DNA of 64,000 bases from NCBI RefSeq assembly GCF_900167905.1, contig NZ_FUYZ01000005.1, forward strand, positions 124,001-188,000. The letters run 5' to 3'. Of this stretch, positions 24,242 to 32,399 are shown piece by piece. How positions within the stretch are numbered: position 1 is the stretch's first letter; each line of letters starts with the position of its first letter. The notes beneath the pieces are model-generated. The model ran no database searches, had not been told where the DNA came from, and saw only the letters and a list, made by a program, of their open reading frames with translations. A program made the position numbers and the translations under genes. The stretch comes from Soonwooa buanensis. Lineage in GTDB: Bacteria > Bacteroidota > Bacteroidia > Flavobacteriales > Weeksellaceae.

Positions 24242-25393
24242 TTACACTTTCAACACATTAAAACCCGCCGCTCGACCGACTGCATTGGAGCCAAACCTAT
24301 TTTTGAGATAATCCATGCTTTGATAGAGGTTGATTAGCTCTTCGGTGTCTTCAAATAAATCCATTTGATGTTGACCGTGAACAAGATTCGTAAATCGGAG
24401 TCCGACCAATCGCAAACGCATTCTTCGGGTATATAATTTCTCGAAAAGATCCAACGCAACTCGCGACAAAGTATGATCTACAGCCGTATAAGCAACTCTG
24501 CACTGCTTGGTTTCGGTGTCGAAATTGGCATATCGAATTTTTAAAGTTACTGTGGAAGTCAACCATTTTTCTTTCCGAAGTTGATACGCTAGTTGCTCCG
24601 CCATTCCAGCAATCAAACCTTTTAGAGCGACAATATCCATGGTATCGTTGGTGAATGTTCGTTCTGTGGAAATCGATTTTCTTTCAGAATAAGGAATGAC
24701 GGGATTTTCATCAATTCCGTTGGCTTTTTTCCAAAGTTCGGTACCGTTTTTACCAATCATCTGTTGAAGCATATGAACAGGCATTTCCGACAAAGTTTGT
24801 ATCGTTCTAATCCCGATTCTTGATAATAATTGAAACGTAACATTTCCCACCATCGGAATTTTCTTGATGGATAGCGGATTTAAAAATGGTTTCACAAGCG
24901 CTTCTTTAATCTCCAATTTCCCTAAAGGTTTGGCTTCACCAGTCCCAATTTTAGAAACGGTTTTGTTCGTAGATAATGCAAAACTGATGGGCAAACCAGC
25001 TTCTTTTTTTACCGCTTCAGCAATTTCTGTCGTCCATTGATAGCACCCGAAAAACTTGTCCATTCCAGATAAATCGAGATAAAATTCATCAATACTCGCT
25101 TTCTCCATCACAGGAACTTTTTCTTGAATAATTTCGGTTACAAGATGTGATAAATTAGAGTACAATTCGTGATCGCCACGGATAATTTTTGCATCGGGAC
25201 ACAGCTTCAGTGCCATACGAATGGGCATCGCAGAACGAACCCCAAATTTACGCGCTTCGTAAGAGCAAGACGCCACCACACCACGATCGCCACCGCCGAT
25301 TATCAAAGGGATACCATTAAGTTCAGAATTGTTCCGTCTCTCGCATGATACAAAAAAAGTGTCCAAATCCATATGTACAATTGCACGATCCAT
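24242..25393 (-). CDS. dinB: DNA polymerase IV (Y-family)
   Basis: 383 residues. Catalytic carboxylates: Asp9 in HMDLDTFF and the SIDEFYLD motif near 103-110; the steric gate region DTFFVSCE is typical. The helix-hairpin-helix (KIPMVGNVTFQLLSRIGIRTIQTLSEMP) and little-finger domain follow. The C-terminus (VLKV) lacks a canonical QLxLF clamp motif at the very end, but QMDLFEDTEE near 355 fits the beta-clamp-binding consensus. It carries out translesion synthesis. In Bacteroidetes dinB often lies beside a second polymerase III alpha gene; here a dnaE-type gene is 4 kb away on the other strand. Confidence 0.93.
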   Translation of the reverse strand: MDRAIVHMDLDTFFVSCERRNNSELNGIPLIIGGGDRGVVASCSYEARKFGVRSAMPIRMALKLCPDAKIIRGDHELYSNLSHLVTEIIQEKVPVMEKASIDEFYLDLSGMDKFFGCYQWTTEIAEAVKKEAGLPISFALSTNKTVSKIGTGEAKPLGKLEIKEALVKPFLNPLSIKKIPMVGNVTFQLLSRIGIRTIQTLSEMPVHMLQQMIGKNGTELWKKANGIDENPVIPYSERKSISTERTFTNDTMDIVALKGLIAGMAEQLAYQLRKEKWLTSTVTLKIRYANFDTETKQCRVAYTAVDHTLSRVALDLFEKLYTRRMRLRLVGLRFTNLVHGQHQMDLFEDTEELINLYQSMDYLKNRFGSNAVGRAAGFNVLKV

Positions 25394-25424: not shown

Positions 25425-25607
25425 ATGAAATATTTAACGATACAAATTGTAACAATATTGATTTTGTCCGATAGCATGCACTTTTTGAGAAGTCAACAAG
25501 AAATTTCGCAGCAAAAAGTAGCCGATTCGTTGCTCATTACCCGTGTTCGATATGCAAAATATGAAGATTTTATTCAGGCTGTGATGAATATTTTTAAAAT
25601 TATGTAA
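25425..25607 (+). CDS. Possible small protein, 60 residues
   Basis: ATG-initiated frame starting 32 bases from the divergent dinB start. The first 17 residues are hydrophobic (MKYLTIQIVTILILSDS) and the remainder is Gln/Ala-rich and basic. No family is recognised and there is no ribosome-binding sequence, so it may be spurious; it is kept because the length and signal-like start are more than expected from noise in this AT-rich gap. Otherwise 25394-25769 holds nothing recognised. Confidence 0.25.
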   Translation: MKYLTIQIVTILILSDSMHFLRSQQEISQQKVADSLLITRVRYAKYEDFIQAVMNIFKIM

Positions 25608-25955: not shown

Positions 25956-26270
25956 TTTAAAATGTGAGATTAGAAATAGATAATAGTTTTATCACTATTC
26001 ATTTAGATAATGTCATTGATTTCATGATGGATATTCAATTCTATTAATTTACAATTTTTCTTGTCAAAATAGAGTTCTCAAACCTTGATTTTTATCACTC
26101 AAAAGTCCTATTCATCGACTATTAAATATTTTTTCTTCAATTAACATCCATATTTCTTTGTATTTCTACATACAATCATTTAATACATATTAAAAAAACA
26201 CAAAAAAGTTAAATTTAATGCAAAAACAATAAAAACTAACAACTGTTAGGATTTTTATCATATCAAAATA

Positions 26271-26302
26271 TTTTAACACAAAATACAATGTTTATAAATT
26301 TG
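26271..26302 (+). promoter_or_regulatory. Flavobacterial-type promoter for the YceI operon
   Basis: TAAATTTG at 26295-26302 fits TAnnTTTG exactly. A TTTT-aac block at 26271-26277 sits about 20 bases upstream as a weak -33 element. The predicted leader to the ATG at 26355 is around 45 bases. Confidence 0.5.
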
Positions 26303-26354
26303 TAATACAAAATAACGAAAGATTATTCAATAATAAATATATAAACTTAAAGAT

Positions 26355-26900
26355 ATGAAAACTACTTACAAGAAAATTGGAATTTTAGTTGGAGCATTAA
26401 TGTTTGGGCTTTCTATCAATTTAGTAAATGCACAAAAAATAAGTCAACAATCTTCAAATGTAAAAATAGATGGCACTTCGACTTTGCATAAATGGGATAT
26501 GACTTCCACTCAATCGACCTTTTCAGGCGATGTTAAAGGCAACAAAATCGAAGATGTAAAATTTGTACTGAAAGCAACTAGCCTAAAAAGTAAAGATTCT
26601 TCTTTAGACAAAAACGCCTACAAGGCACTTAATACAGACAAATATCCTGACATTGTCTTTACAACAAGTAGTTTACCAACTAGCGGAAGTGCAACCGTGC
26701 AAGGTAATATGACCATCAGCAATGTCACCAAAAATATTAGCATTCCTGTTAATGTTACTAAAAGTGGGAATTCTTACAACATTAAAGGAAGTACAAAATT
26801 GAAAATGACAACTTTCGGGATTAAACCTCCTAGTGTGATGATGGGAACTATAAAATCGGGCGATGAGATCAATATCAATTTCAATATTAGTACAAAATAA
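26355..26900 (+). CDS. YceI-family periplasmic protein
   Basis: 181 residues. Signal peptide ends near LVNAQ. The YceI lipocalin-like barrel follows: VKIDGTSTLHKWDMTS (the STLHKW block is common in Bacteroidetes members), the KDSSLDKNAYKAL loop, and KYPDIVFTT, which corresponds to the F-P-x-I-x-F strand of the family. YceI proteins bind long isoprenoid or fatty-acid-like molecules in the periplasm and are often induced by stress; the ligand here is unknown. It leads a cluster with a porin-like gene and a second YceI-like gene. Confidence 0.88.
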   Translation: MKTTYKKIGILVGALMFGLSINLVNAQKISQQSSNVKIDGTSTLHKWDMTSTQSTFSGDVKGNKIEDVKFVLKATSLKSKDSSLDKNAYKALNTDKYPDIVFTTSSLPTSGSATVQGNMTISNVTKNISIPVNVTKSGNSYNIKGSTKLKMTTFGIKPPSVMMGTIKSGDEININFNISTK

Positions 26901-26943
26901 GAACTAAGTCAACACATTTTTTAACAATATTAAATAAGAAACT

Positions 26944-28215
26944 ATGAAATTAAATATACTTAAAACAACAGCTTTAGCAGCCATTTTCTTCAGTGGATTA
27001 GGACATGCGCAAGAACAAAAATTTGATAACTTTTCACCAAGAGATCAACATGGCGTTAACCAATTCGAAAGTCCAAAAGACTCTGTGACAACGTTTGAAA
27101 AACTAAAGGTAAGAGTTGGCGGTGCCTTCGCACTACAATTCCAAGGGGTTAAACATGAGAGCGGTGCAGATCAAAATAATCCAGCTACAAAATTGTATAA
27201 CATCGGGAACAACTTTAACTTACCAACAGCCAATTTGGATATCGATGTTGCTTTATATGATGGTGTTAATTTGCACTTGAGAACGTTCTTGTCGTCTCGC
27301 CACCACAACGAAACTTATGTAAAAGGTGGTTATTTACAAATTGACAAATTAGACTTTATTAAAAAGGATTTTCTTGGAGATTTTATGAAATATGCAACTA
27401 TTAAAGTTGGACAAGATGAGATCAATTACGGTGATGCGCATTTTAGAAGAAGTGACAACGCATACACAATCCGAAATCCATTTGTAGGAAATTATCTAAT
27501 GGACGCCTATGCAACAATGGTTTTTGCAGAAGTTTATTATCAAAGAAATGGCTTTTTAGGAATGGCGGGTGTTACCAACGGGCGACTTAACCAAAATGCT
27601 ACAGGCGGAACAAGTCCTTCTGTCTACGCAAAAATTGGTTATGACAAGCAAGTTAACAATGATCTTAGAGTTCGTTTGACAGGTTCGGTTTACAATGCGG
27701 CGCAAACACAGAGATTAGATTTCTATGACGGTGACAGAGCTGGATCTAGATATTATTATGTGATGGAAAATGCCGCGGCTACATCTTCTGCTAATTTCAG
27801 ATCTGGACAGGTTATCCCAGATTTTAAGAACAAAGTAACTAGCGTCATGATTAACCCTTTTGTTAAATACCAAGGTTTAGAATTCTTCGGAATCTTTGAA
27901 AATGCTTCTGGAAGAAACTTTACAGAGGTTGACAGAAGAACATGGAACCAATACGGCGCAGAACTTTTGTATCGATTCGGAAACAACGAGAACCTTTATG
28001 TGGGCGGTCGTTACAACATGGTTAAAGGTGAAATGGCAGACAAAAGCAACGTAGAAGTTAAAAGATACAACGTTGGTGGTGGCTGGTTTATGACTAAAAA
28101 TATCATGGCGAAAGCAGAATATGTTAATCAAAAATACGATGGATATTCTCCAGCAAATATTTTGTACGACGGAAAATTCAATGGCGTAGTCCTAGAAGCG
28201 GCTATTTCATTCTAA
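26944..28215 (+). CDS. Outer-membrane porin-like beta-barrel
   Basis: 423 residues. Signal peptide ends near GHAQE. The mature protein is a series of amphipathic strands with aromatic girdles (LKVRVGGAFALQFQG, NLHLRTFLSSRHHNETYVKGGYLQID, ...NLYVGGRYNMVKGEM) and ends in a strand finishing with aromatic Phe (VVLEAAISF), the C-terminal signature used by the BAM complex. A substrate channel is likely but specificity is not deducible. It lies 43 bases after the YceI gene and is probably co-transcribed. Confidence 0.75.
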   Translation: MKLNILKTTALAAIFFSGLGHAQEQKFDNFSPRDQHGVNQFESPKDSVTTFEKLKVRVGGAFALQFQGVKHESGADQNNPATKLYNIGNNFNLPTANLDIDVALYDGVNLHLRTFLSSRHHNETYVKGGYLQIDKLDFIKKDFLGDFMKYATIKVGQDEINYGDAHFRRSDNAYTIRNPFVGNYLMDAYATMVFAEVYYQRNGFLGMAGVTNGRLNQNATGGTSPSVYAKIGYDKQVNNDLRVRLTGSVYNAAQTQRLDFYDGDRAGSRYYYVMENAAATSSANFRSGQVIPDFKNKVTSVMINPFVKYQGLEFFGIFENASGRNFTEVDRRTWNQYGAELLYRFGNNENLYVGGRYNMVKGEMADKSNVEVKRYNVGGGWFMTKNIMAKAEYVNQKYDGYSPANILYDGKFNGVVLEAAISF

Positions 28216-28244
28216 ATAATTGATAGTTAATATTGTTTGTGTTA

Positions 28245-28281
28245 GAGGGAAGATTATTTCTCGGACATCTTCCCTCTTTTA
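28245..28281 (+). terminator. Intrinsic terminator
   Basis: Perfect 9-bp stem gagggaaga / tcttccctc followed by a T-rich tail. It splits the YceI-porin unit from the following YceI-like gene, although the latter starts only 13 bases later. Confidence 0.85.
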
Positions 28282-28293
28282 ATTTTTATTAAA

Positions 28294-28800
28294 ATGAAAC
28301 GCTTATACATTTTTTCTTTTGCTGTTTTTGGTGCTTTGATGATGTTTGGACAGCAAAATTTTATTGAAATAAATGGCAAAACCAACATCAATAGCTTCAA
28401 ATGTGTTAATGATATTTCTAATGATAGCAATAGCATCAATTTTAGCAAAGCACAACTTCCCGAACTCGAAATTAAAGTCAATGGATTCGATTGTAAAAAC
28501 CGAGTGATGACCAACGATTTCAAAAAGACACTTTCTGAGAAGCAATATCCGACTATGTATGTTAAGTTTTTGAACTTTTCTAAAACCAGTAACAATCAAT
28601 ATTTAGCGAATGTTGAAGTCAAAATAATGAACAAAACTCAGAAGTATCAAATTAATTTTTCAAACCAAAATGGGAGGTTAAACGGCAAAAGAAATGTAAA
28701 ATTCAGTGACTTCCAAATCACACCTCCAAAGAAGATGGGCGGCGTTGTGGTTGTCAAAGACGAGTTGTCATTGCAATTTTGTTTAGATGCCAAAATCTAG
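28294..28800 (+). CDS. YceI-like secreted protein
   Basis: 168 residues. Signal peptide ends near MMFGQQ. The organisation parallels the YceI protein at 26355-26900: INGKTNINSFKC strand, central ELEIKVNGFDCKNRVMTNDF (VMTNDFKKTL equals the loop before the conserved Y-P strand), KQYPTMYVKF and FQITPPKKMGG, which matches FGIKPPSVMMG of its neighbour. Three cysteines are unusual for the family. Most likely a diverged YceI paralogue of the same stress or ligand-binding system. Confidence 0.65.
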   Translation: MKRLYIFSFAVFGALMMFGQQNFIEINGKTNINSFKCVNDISNDSNSINFSKAQLPELEIKVNGFDCKNRVMTNDFKKTLSEKQYPTMYVKFLNFSKTSNNQYLANVEVKIMNKTQKYQINFSNQNGRLNGKRNVKFSDFQITPPKKMGGVVVVKDELSLQFCLDAKI

Positions 28801-28839
28801 TAAAAGCACACTTTATATAAATTCTACGTTTTTTTATTT

Positions 28840-28870
28840 GGGGTTGTCGAAAGGCAACTCCTTTTTGTTT
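28840..28870 (+). terminator. Intrinsic terminator
   Basis: ggggttg / caactcc stem (with one G-T pair) around tcgaaagg, then a T-run. It closes the second YceI-like gene. From 28871 to 29190 the sequence is AT-rich with no feature I can support. Confidence 0.75.
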
Positions 28871-29193
28871 GAAATGATAATTTTTTATTTAAAACTTTGT
28901 TGCTTTGAGTGGCACAACATGGTCATATAAGCAAAAAAAATAACTGAAATTACAACTTATATAAGTAAAGTTATATTGTATAAGACTTGCTCTTATTCTT
29001 TAATGTTTTTTATCTGATGTACTATCTTATCTTACTTTTTTCCATAACTTTGATTTTAAGATTTTTTAAGATTTTTGATGAAAATGTTTTACAATTTTGG
29101 GTATCTGTTGCTTTGTTTAAATACTTTGTTAGTTAGTTTTCTAAGGGACTAAAAACATGAAAAAAATTTGTAAAGAATAGGTTAGTAAAAAAA

Positions 29194-29225
29194 GTTCTCG
29201 ATACGCTTCGCTACTCGAACTGACG
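29194..29225. repeat. Palindromic extragenic repeat
   Basis: gttctcgatacgcttcgcta followed by ctcgaactgacg, an imperfect palindrome centred on gcttcgc. Words of this form are scattered between genes in many flavobacterial genomes. It lies 118 bases upstream of the broken dnaE start. Confidence 0.5.
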
Positions 29226-29296
29226 CAATATCTAACTTTATTAATAAAGCGATATATATTGTGGTTTTCGGGTTTTCGGTTTAATGTTTTACGTCA

Positions 29297-29340
29297 CGAA
29301 TCTCGAATCTCGAATCTCAAATTTCAAACCTCAAATCCTC
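29297..29340. repeat. Heptamer repeat directly before dnaE
   Basis: Three perfect cgaatct units followed by decayed ones (caaattt, caaacct, caaatcc), period seven, ending 2 bases before the dnaE ATG. On the other strand the unit is agattcg, close to the agaatca units at 15041-15221, so the two tracts may share an origin. Confidence 0.6.
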
Positions 29341-29342
29341 CC

Positions 29343-32300
29343 ATGTTCATCAACTGTCATTCATATCACAGCCTGCGTTACGGCACTTTATCCATCGACG
29401 ATTTGGTGGAGCAAGCGGCATATTTTGGTTTAAAAGAATTGGTGTTAACCGACATTAATACCGTAACGGGAATCTACGATTTCAAGAAGAAATGTGAGGA
29501 AAATGGTATTAAACCTATCGTTGGTGTAGAAATCAGAAAAGATAATAAATTACTGTACATCTGCATTGCAAAGGAGTTTTCAGGGATTGGTGAAATCAAT
29601 AAAATGTTGACCAATTATAATTGTCACGACATCGATTTACCAATACAAAATCCAGATTTCAAGCAGGTTTTTGTAGTTTATCCTTTAGAAAATATCCCCG
29701 AAAAACTTTTAGAAAACGAGTTTATTGGCATTCGAGAAGAAGAACTCAATTTTTTAATCCGCCCTGAATTAAAGGATTTACAACACAAAATGCTCGTTTG
29801 GCAGCCTGTGACGGTGAGTTCGCAAAAAGAATTCAATCTTCATAAGATTTTACGTGCTATTGAACTTAATACGTTAATTGCAAAACTCAATGATAAGGAT
29901 TGTTGTAAAGCTAACGAGCGTTTCAAAGCTTTATCACAGCTAAAAGATGAATTTAAATTTCATCCTCAATTAATAGAGAATACCGAAAATTTAGTGAAAC
30001 AATGCAGTTTTGAGTTTGATTTTGAAAAGGTTAAGAACAAAAGTTCCTATACAAAATCCAAGAAAGAAGATGTAGAACTTCTTAAAAAACTAGCCTATTC
30101 TGGTTTGGAAAAACGCTATGGGTTGAACCATGAAGTCGCCAAAAAAAGAGTTGAAAAAGAGCTGAAAGTTATCGATGAACTTAATTTTTGTGCTTATTTT
30201 CTCATCACTTGGGATATTGTTCAGTATAGTAATAAGATGGGTTTTATGCATGTTGGACGCGGAAGTGGCGCCAACTCTATCGTCAGTTATTGTTTGGGAA
30301 TCACGGATATTTGTCCGCTCGAATTGGATTTGTATTTTGAGCGATTTTTAAATTTAAACCGAAAATCTCCGCCCGATTTCGATATCGATTGGAGTTGGCA
30401 AGATCGGGATACGATTTTAGAATATATTTTTAATCGTTATGGTCGCGATCATGTTGCTTTTTGCGGAACGAATGTAGAGTTTAAATACCGCTCGATTTTT
30501 CGGGAAGTGGGGAAAGCATTTGGTTTGCCCAAAGAAGAACTCGATGCATTGGCGAAAAATCCAATGGCGACGCATGATAAAAATGATGTGGTGAAAATGG
30601 TTCATAAATATGGATTATTGCTGGAAAAATTCCCGAACCAGCGCAGTATGCACGCTTGTGGAATTTTGATTTCCGAGGAGCCGATTACGAATTTCACCGC
30701 GTTGGAAATGCCGCCGAAAGGTTTTCCGATTGTTCAGTTTGACATGAATGTTGCCGAAGATATTAAGCTCGAAAAACTCGATATTTTGTCGCAACGTGGC
30801 TTAGGAACGATTAATGACACTGTAAAACTCATTAAAGAAATCCGCGGAATCGACGTTGATATTCGCGACACGAGTTTATCTAAAGATGAAGCAAAAACCA
30901 ACGAATATTTGCAGATTGGAAAAACCATCGGCTGTTTTTACATCGAATCTCCTGCGATGCGTGGTTTGCTGCGCCGTTTGAAGTGCAATAATTACAAGGT
31001 TTTGGTTGCGGCTTCCTCCATTATTCGTCCTGGTGTGGCGCAAAGTGGAATGATGCGGGAGTATATTTTTCGACATAATAATCCCGATAAGTTTGAGTTT
31101 TTTCATCCCGAATTTGAAAAGCATTTAAAGGAAACCTACGGAATCATGGTCTATCAGGAAGATGTGATTAAAATTGCACAGTATTTTGGAGGTTTAACTT
31201 TGGCGGACGGCGATATTCTGCGAAGAGCGATGAGTGGCAAAAGTCGTTCTATCCAAAAACTTCAAGAAGTAAAAAATAATTTTTTCAAATCTTGTAAAGA
31301 AAAAGGGCATTCCGAAAAACTGACTGCAGAAGCCTATCGACAGATAGAATCTTTTGCAGGATATTCGTTTTGTAAGGCGCATTCCGCGTCGTATGCGGTC
31401 GAAAGTTATCAAAGTTTGTATCTTAAAGTTTATTATCCGCTGGAATTTATGGTTTCGGTGATTAACAATCAAGGAGGTTTTTACCGTACCGAAGTTTATG
31501 TTCACGAAGCTAAAATGTCGGGTGGAATCATTAGAAATCCTTGTGTTAATACGAGTTGTTTTCAAACGGTTTTAAAAGGAAAAGAAATTTATTTAGGTTT
31601 TATGCTTTTAGATGGGCTAGAATCTAAAATTGCACATGGAATTGCCGAAGAACGCAATAAAAATGGAGATTTTAAATCTTTACACGATTTTATTCGTTGA
31701 ATTCCCGTTGGTTTGGAAACGATACAAATCCTAATTTTTATTGATGCTTTCAGGTTTACAGGAAAACAAAAAAACGAATTGCTCGTCGAGGCGAGATTGC
31801 TTTTAGTCAATTTTAAACCAGAAAATAGAGGTTTGATGCTTATTGAAGAACCAATCCAAGAATATCGGCTTCCACAACTGAAAAGAGAGCCTTTTGAAGA
31901 TGCTTTTGATGAATTCGAATTGATTGGTTTTACCGTTTCTTGTACACCTTTTGACTTGTTGCAAACCAAATTTCGAGGTGATATTTTTGTGAAAGATTTA
32001 CTTCAAAATCATAAAAAACAAGTGCGAATGTTGGCATATCTTATTTCGCGAAAACACGTTCCCACAAAGAAAGGAACGATGTATTTCGGAACTTGGATTG
32101 ACGTAAATGGTGATTATTTCGATACCGCGCATTTTCCTGATAGTTTAAAAGAATACGATTTTCAAGGTGGCGGTTGTTATTTACTTTTGGGAACTGTGGA
32201 AGTCGATTTTCATTTTCCGACGATTACAATTCACAAAATGGCGAAAATGCCGATGATTCCTGATCCGCGCTATCATTCCACAGAAGAAAAGCGCTTTGAA

Positions 32301-32399
32301 GTTCTGCAAAATCTAAAAGAAGACATCAGCATGACGCACCGAAAACCGTACCCACAAGAGCACGAAATTGGCTTGCCGAGACAGAGGTTCGAAAAATAA
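29343..32399 (+). pseudogene. dnaE: DNA polymerase III alpha subunit (second DnaE), split by in-frame TGA
   Basis: An ATG at 29343 opens a frame for 785 codons to a TGA at 31698-31700; the same frame then continues for 232 more codons to 32399 with clearly homologous sequence (IPVGLETIQ..., then a C-terminal OB-type stretch), giving a normal full length of about 1,020 residues. The N-terminal PHP domain has degenerate metal ligands (HSYHSLRYG, LTDIN instead of TDHGN). Catalytic aspartates of the polymerase are intact (PDFDIDWSWQDRD), with GRGSGANS before them. Residues after the stop may begin at TTG 31713 only as a fragment. The truncated first part keeps palm and fingers but loses the OB region. 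It probably worked in SOS translesion synthesis with dinB. A sequencing error or readthrough cannot be excluded. Confidence 0.8.

Follow-up and report, generated by a model that had tools for sequence, protein, structure and literature searches.

The window analysed here is the whole 64,000-nucleotide stretch of Soonwooa buanensis contig NZ_FUYZ01000005.1, and it contains a polymerase gene that is split by a single in-frame stop codon. The first part of the gene (29343..31700, plus strand) opens with ATG at 29343 and runs for 785 sense codons to 31697, followed by TGA at 31698–31700. The remainder (31701..32399, plus strand) continues in the same frame with 232 sense codons (31701–32396) and ends with TAA at 32397–32399. 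A mechanical ORF list placed the start of the frame at TTG 29259; homologues, for example the one at locus L006, start at the ATG equivalent to 29343. The second part showed 61–83% identity to close homologues, and in 87 out of 87 of them the corresponding sequence was found in the same reading frame directly after the first part (this count sets aside seven distant homologues, L091–L097; L077, which is cut by a contig end, matches over 68 residues only). As judged from this homology, the frame after the stop is part of the same polymerase and a chance open frame is excluded. A scan of the window for long frames that lie next to each other in the same phase with one stop between them gave seven pairs, among which the polymerase pair alone was homology-tested across the stop. 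Translation, DNA and the 87 homologues thus bear out the claim of an earlier note on this DNA that the TGA splits a DnaE-type gene whose frame resumes without a shift.

The earlier note had also placed a basic residue at the position of the stop in homologues and had proposed an alignment with close relatives. In the alignment, the residue at the TGA was shown to be Arg in all 93 homologues having a residue there, and the aligned residue in the replicative DnaE1 of S. buanensis itself was also Arg. The 93 include the paralogue from the same genome and the identical sequences L013 and L085, which come from a single organism, and the 94th homologue, L038, has an earlier stop of its own and hence no residue at this position. 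No homologue had UGA there. The Arg codons were AGA (27), CGC (25), CGA (21), CGT (8), AGG (7) and CGG (4), the codon of L077 not being read. A single C-to-T change from CGA to TGA, as suggested for the stop, would be a plausible origin: of the 92 homologues with a codon read, 21 carry CGA.

Pfam matches over cut-off to PHP, the Pol3 alpha core, the finger domain and a helix-hairpin-helix domain (HHH_6) identified the gene as a C-family DNA polymerase (DnaE), and the first part also matched TIGR00594 (DnaE superfamily, NCBIfam) over cut-off. The PHP, core and finger domains were whole before the stop. In the first part alone, the HHH_6 match reached profile position 59 of 90, and when the frame was read through the stop it covered residues 730–812. 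The stop thus lies inside HHH_6, and a 785-aa product would lose the end of this domain, together with the C-terminal part that follows it. The tail alone matched no Pfam or NCBIfam family. With the NCBIfam model for error-prone DnaE (NF004225), the first part scored 459 bits and so fell short of the cut-off, which is 939, so that the DnaE2 label rests on gene context and literature. A separate replicative DnaE1, in a 1555-codon DnaE frame about 33% identical to the window gene, was found on contig C8 of the same genome, as expected for an accessory polymerase. Just after the HhH region, at 31833–31853, the window and L006 showed LMLIEEP in place of the LFEEP found in L018 and in the paralogue from the same genome. 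If this stretch is the clamp-binding site, the site differs in the clade of the window and L006.

The gene organization around the polymerase was unusual. At other loci with a dinB match, dinB, a Y-family polymerase gene, preceded dnaE2 on the same strand in 92 of 92 cases, including the paralogue from the same genome (L120) and one organism counted twice (L013 and L121). The gap, measured by match ends, was at most 100 bases in 87 of these loci and 117 to 578 bases in the remaining five. Rows for the window itself (L001, L114 and WIN) and duplicates or fragments (L002, L085, L115, L116 and L124) were excluded before counting, and the distant loci L096 and L097 showed no dinB match within their short flanks. 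All 92 loci thus link dnaE2 to an active-looking Y-family polymerase, catalytic activity being inferred from sequence motifs. In the window, the dinB-type gene, an open frame of 383 aa (24242..25393), was nearby but detached, lying on the minus strand and pointing away from dnaE2.

Between the two polymerase genes, a yceI/porin-like/yceI block (26229..28831, plus strand) was present. The block showed 80% DNA identity to a region in G001, the sole other genome of the genus examined; no dinB or dnaE2 match was found in the 19 kb around it there, and the dnaE2 copy in that genome was just 51–53% identical to the window gene. Beside dinB, in the usual place and orientation of the S24/HTH regulator, only a remnant was found (25461..25568, plus strand), which matched residues 3–38 of the paralogous regulator, 36 residues of the HTH part, at 67% identity. 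The remnant is divergent from dinB, which suggests that the window dinB is without a local repressor. The regulator was also undetected beside several intact dnaE2 copies, so that a missing regulator does not by itself point to decay.

Directly upstream of dnaE2, an AT-rich stretch (28832..29342) was searched with a promoter motif of the Bacteroidetes type, and only one, unconvincing match to its -7-like part was found. This stretch includes a 27-base element (29199–29225) that was present in eight places in the genome with at most two mismatches, four per strand, with none for the reversed control. Two other stretches occurred in two genome places each. In the search for repeats at inversion breakpoints, only weak pairs were found, and neither the 27-base element nor the two other stretches formed a convincing end pair.

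The same genome contains a complete second cassette on contig C11, which, like the broken state of the first, is additional to the earlier note. It consists of a regulator with HTH_3 and Peptidase_S24 domains, a dinB gene divergent from the regulator, and a dnaE2 gene for 1028 aa that starts 8 bases after dinB. The product of the latter showed 69% identity to the window gene over the first part. Comparison with this cassette and with those of relatives places the window gene among the Bacteroidetes DnaE2-type polymerases, whose usual cassette is an S24 regulator divergent from a dinB-dnaE2 pair.

In published accounts, Bacteroidetes DnaE2 is described as coupled with an active Y-family polymerase (PMC6511836, PMC12926913), S24-type SOS regulators are described in Bacteroidetes (PMC8565304), and a table of genomes that have two or three DnaE2 genes includes Bacteroidetes (PMC3919608). 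The designation SOS polymerase would fit the accounts of this group (PMC6511836, PMC8565304, PMC12926913). The nearest known system is the DnaE2B-PolY-RecA system of Bacteroidetes (PMC12926913; Cellulophaga algicola operon, PMC6511836), which is resembled by the relatives and by the second S. buanensis copy in having the C-family gene directly downstream of the Y-family gene. In contrast, dinB and dnaE2 in the window are separated and divergent and dnaE2 has a stop, and the window gene is a putative member of this system. The regulator of the second cassette, divergent from dinB, is similarly organized to the S24-type SOS regulators (PMC8565304), whereas about 36 recognisable residues of the HTH part are kept in the window.

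Broken copies were found to be rare. A match at E ≤ 1e-150 was present in 199 of the 320 genomes of the family, and among the 150 matches listed in the family scan (counted by hand, with at most two candidates scored per genome and weaker matches outside the listing) the window was the only one with a stop inside the match. Among the 94 homologues there was one other broken copy, a comparable case, namely the dnaE2 gene L038 of Chryseobacterium sp. JUb7, where a single in-frame TAG at codon 432 (L038:7294–7296), CAG in the four relatives looked at, is followed by 585 open codons. As in the window, one nonsense codon is followed by an open frame and the genome also holds an intact copy (L048). 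The two cases differ in that the stop of L038 is at a different site and is an independent event, and in that its dinB and regulator are in their usual places. A literature search for published dnaE2 pseudogenes or premature stops gave one paper, on Mycobacterium tuberculosis (PMC7549793), and Chryseobacterium was not named in the matches listed on error-prone dnaE/dinB (best 20 of 82).

Two further observations concern the distribution of the polymerase. At E ≤ 1e-100, it was found on five plasmid records out of 72,556, among them a 69-kb plasmid of Chryseobacterium shandongense that carries a dnaE2 with 71% identity (NZ_CP033916.1:56014–58368), which indicates that these cassettes can be plasmid-borne. 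Besides, a metagenome-assembled genome labelled Candidatus Delongbacteria (L047) contained a dnaE2 with 70% identity to that of the window, which grouped among Weeksellaceae copies in the tree. This placement would be due either to transfer or to a misbinned contig.

To address the age of the stop, a branch codon model that we implemented ourselves was fitted to 13 sequences over 1012 codons. For the whole gene, omega was 0.0521 on the window branch and 0.0508 elsewhere (2dlnL 0.02). Before the stop the values were 0.0530 and 0.0537, and after it 0.0545 and 0.0386, a difference that was not significant (2dlnL 1.08). In this model, no relaxed selection on the window branch was thus detected on either side of the stop. 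Branches of intact copies varied more, with first-part omega from 0.026 (L010) to 0.1045 (L015), and the method is rough at such divergence, as in three control fits (L005, L024 and L018) the branch lengths reached the bound. The likelihood profile gave omega of about 0.037–0.073 for the whole gene and about 0.03–0.10 for the tail. Assuming an omega of 1 from the appearance of the stop onwards, the period with the stop would make up no more than roughly 2% of the branch as judged from the whole gene, or 6% as judged from the tail.

Decay of the frame was also looked for in alignment columns with a conservation of 97% or more among the other sequences, a count that leaves out L038, L077 and seven distant sequences. 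Before the stop, 5 of 334 such columns were changed in the window (rank 6 of 86, median 1), and after it 1 of 93 (rank 18 of 86 with ties, median 1), the latter being Gly 801 to Asp, where Gly is kept in 84 of 85 others, a change that speaks for loss of the gene. Among fully invariant columns, 2 of 266 were changed before the stop and 0 of 54 after it. There was thus a slight excess of changes before the stop and no excess after it, which matches the codon model only partly, and decay of the frame was rejected. With no relaxed selection detected, three possibilities are left: a stop of very recent date, an erroneous base, or a gene that is still functional.

The last of these could take two forms, both raised in the earlier note. 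A functional truncated polymerase of 785 aa, either by itself or accompanied by a C-terminal piece with its own start (TTG 31713, 228 aa), would agree with purifying selection in both halves and with the three whole domains before the stop. No protein among the 94 homologues terminates at this position; this, the loss of the end of HHH_6 and the lack of any family match for the tail make this form very unlikely. Programmed or efficient UGA readthrough to a full-length polymerase would explain the conserved frame after the stop with its omega of 0.0545. In the genome, 39 tRNAs were found from 150 of 257 candidates scored; none of the 39 had a UCA anticodon (ARAGORN; the set is incomplete, as tRNA-Ile with anticodon GAT was not seen), and all genome matches to tRNA-Sec were below cut-off. 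Recoding of UGA by selenocysteine or a suppressor tRNA was rejected for want of support in this incomplete set. Readthrough is highly improbable, also given that no homologue carries UGA. No positive evidence was found for either form; both draw on the conserved frame, for which a young stop accounts equally well. It is likewise very unlikely that the split cassette as a whole still works, with a 785-residue polymerase, perhaps together with a separate C-terminal piece, providing a translesion activity beside the second cassette; such activity would be differently controlled, since dnaE2 is separated from dinB and the regulator, and the purifying selection seen in both halves would be compatible with it.

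A sequencing or assembly error, with a sense codon at 31698 and an intact polymerase gene, would require a single base only, in a 30-contig draft; apart from the stop, the frame is open and normally constrained. We consider an error rather unlikely, though it is the alternative to be taken most seriously. The surrounding cassette is independently disrupted, and the completeness of 99.96 and contamination of 0.29 are good, though silent on single bases.

The stop replaces a conserved sense codon and is followed by homologous frame, as in a pseudogene made by nonsense mutation. The best reading of the locus, with a probability of roughly 0.73, is a nonsense mutation of very recent date in a dnaE2-type copy that is redundant and dismantled. 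Recent loss, one of the possibilities offered in the earlier note, is supported by the intact paralogue, the broken-up cassette, the otherwise invariant Arg and selection that is not yet relaxed. For this probable young pseudogene, we suggest that a rearrangement, most simply an inversion that ended on one side between dinB and dnaE2 and would give the observed gene order, removed dnaE2 from the dinB promoter, that the local regulator was mostly deleted, and that a C-to-T change at the Arg codon ended translation, the order of the three being left unspecified. The 785-residue product would then be non-functional, and the second cassette would presumably carry the function.

Read as a young pseudogene, the locus provides a new case of spare translesion-polymerase cassettes, often multiple in these bacteria, coming apart while another copy remains, in this case with partner and regulator detached or lost and then a nonsense codon. 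If the stop is fixed in the species and both halves are under selection, the gene would show, as a natural experiment, which parts DnaE2 needs; if not, the locus would represent ordinary gene loss.
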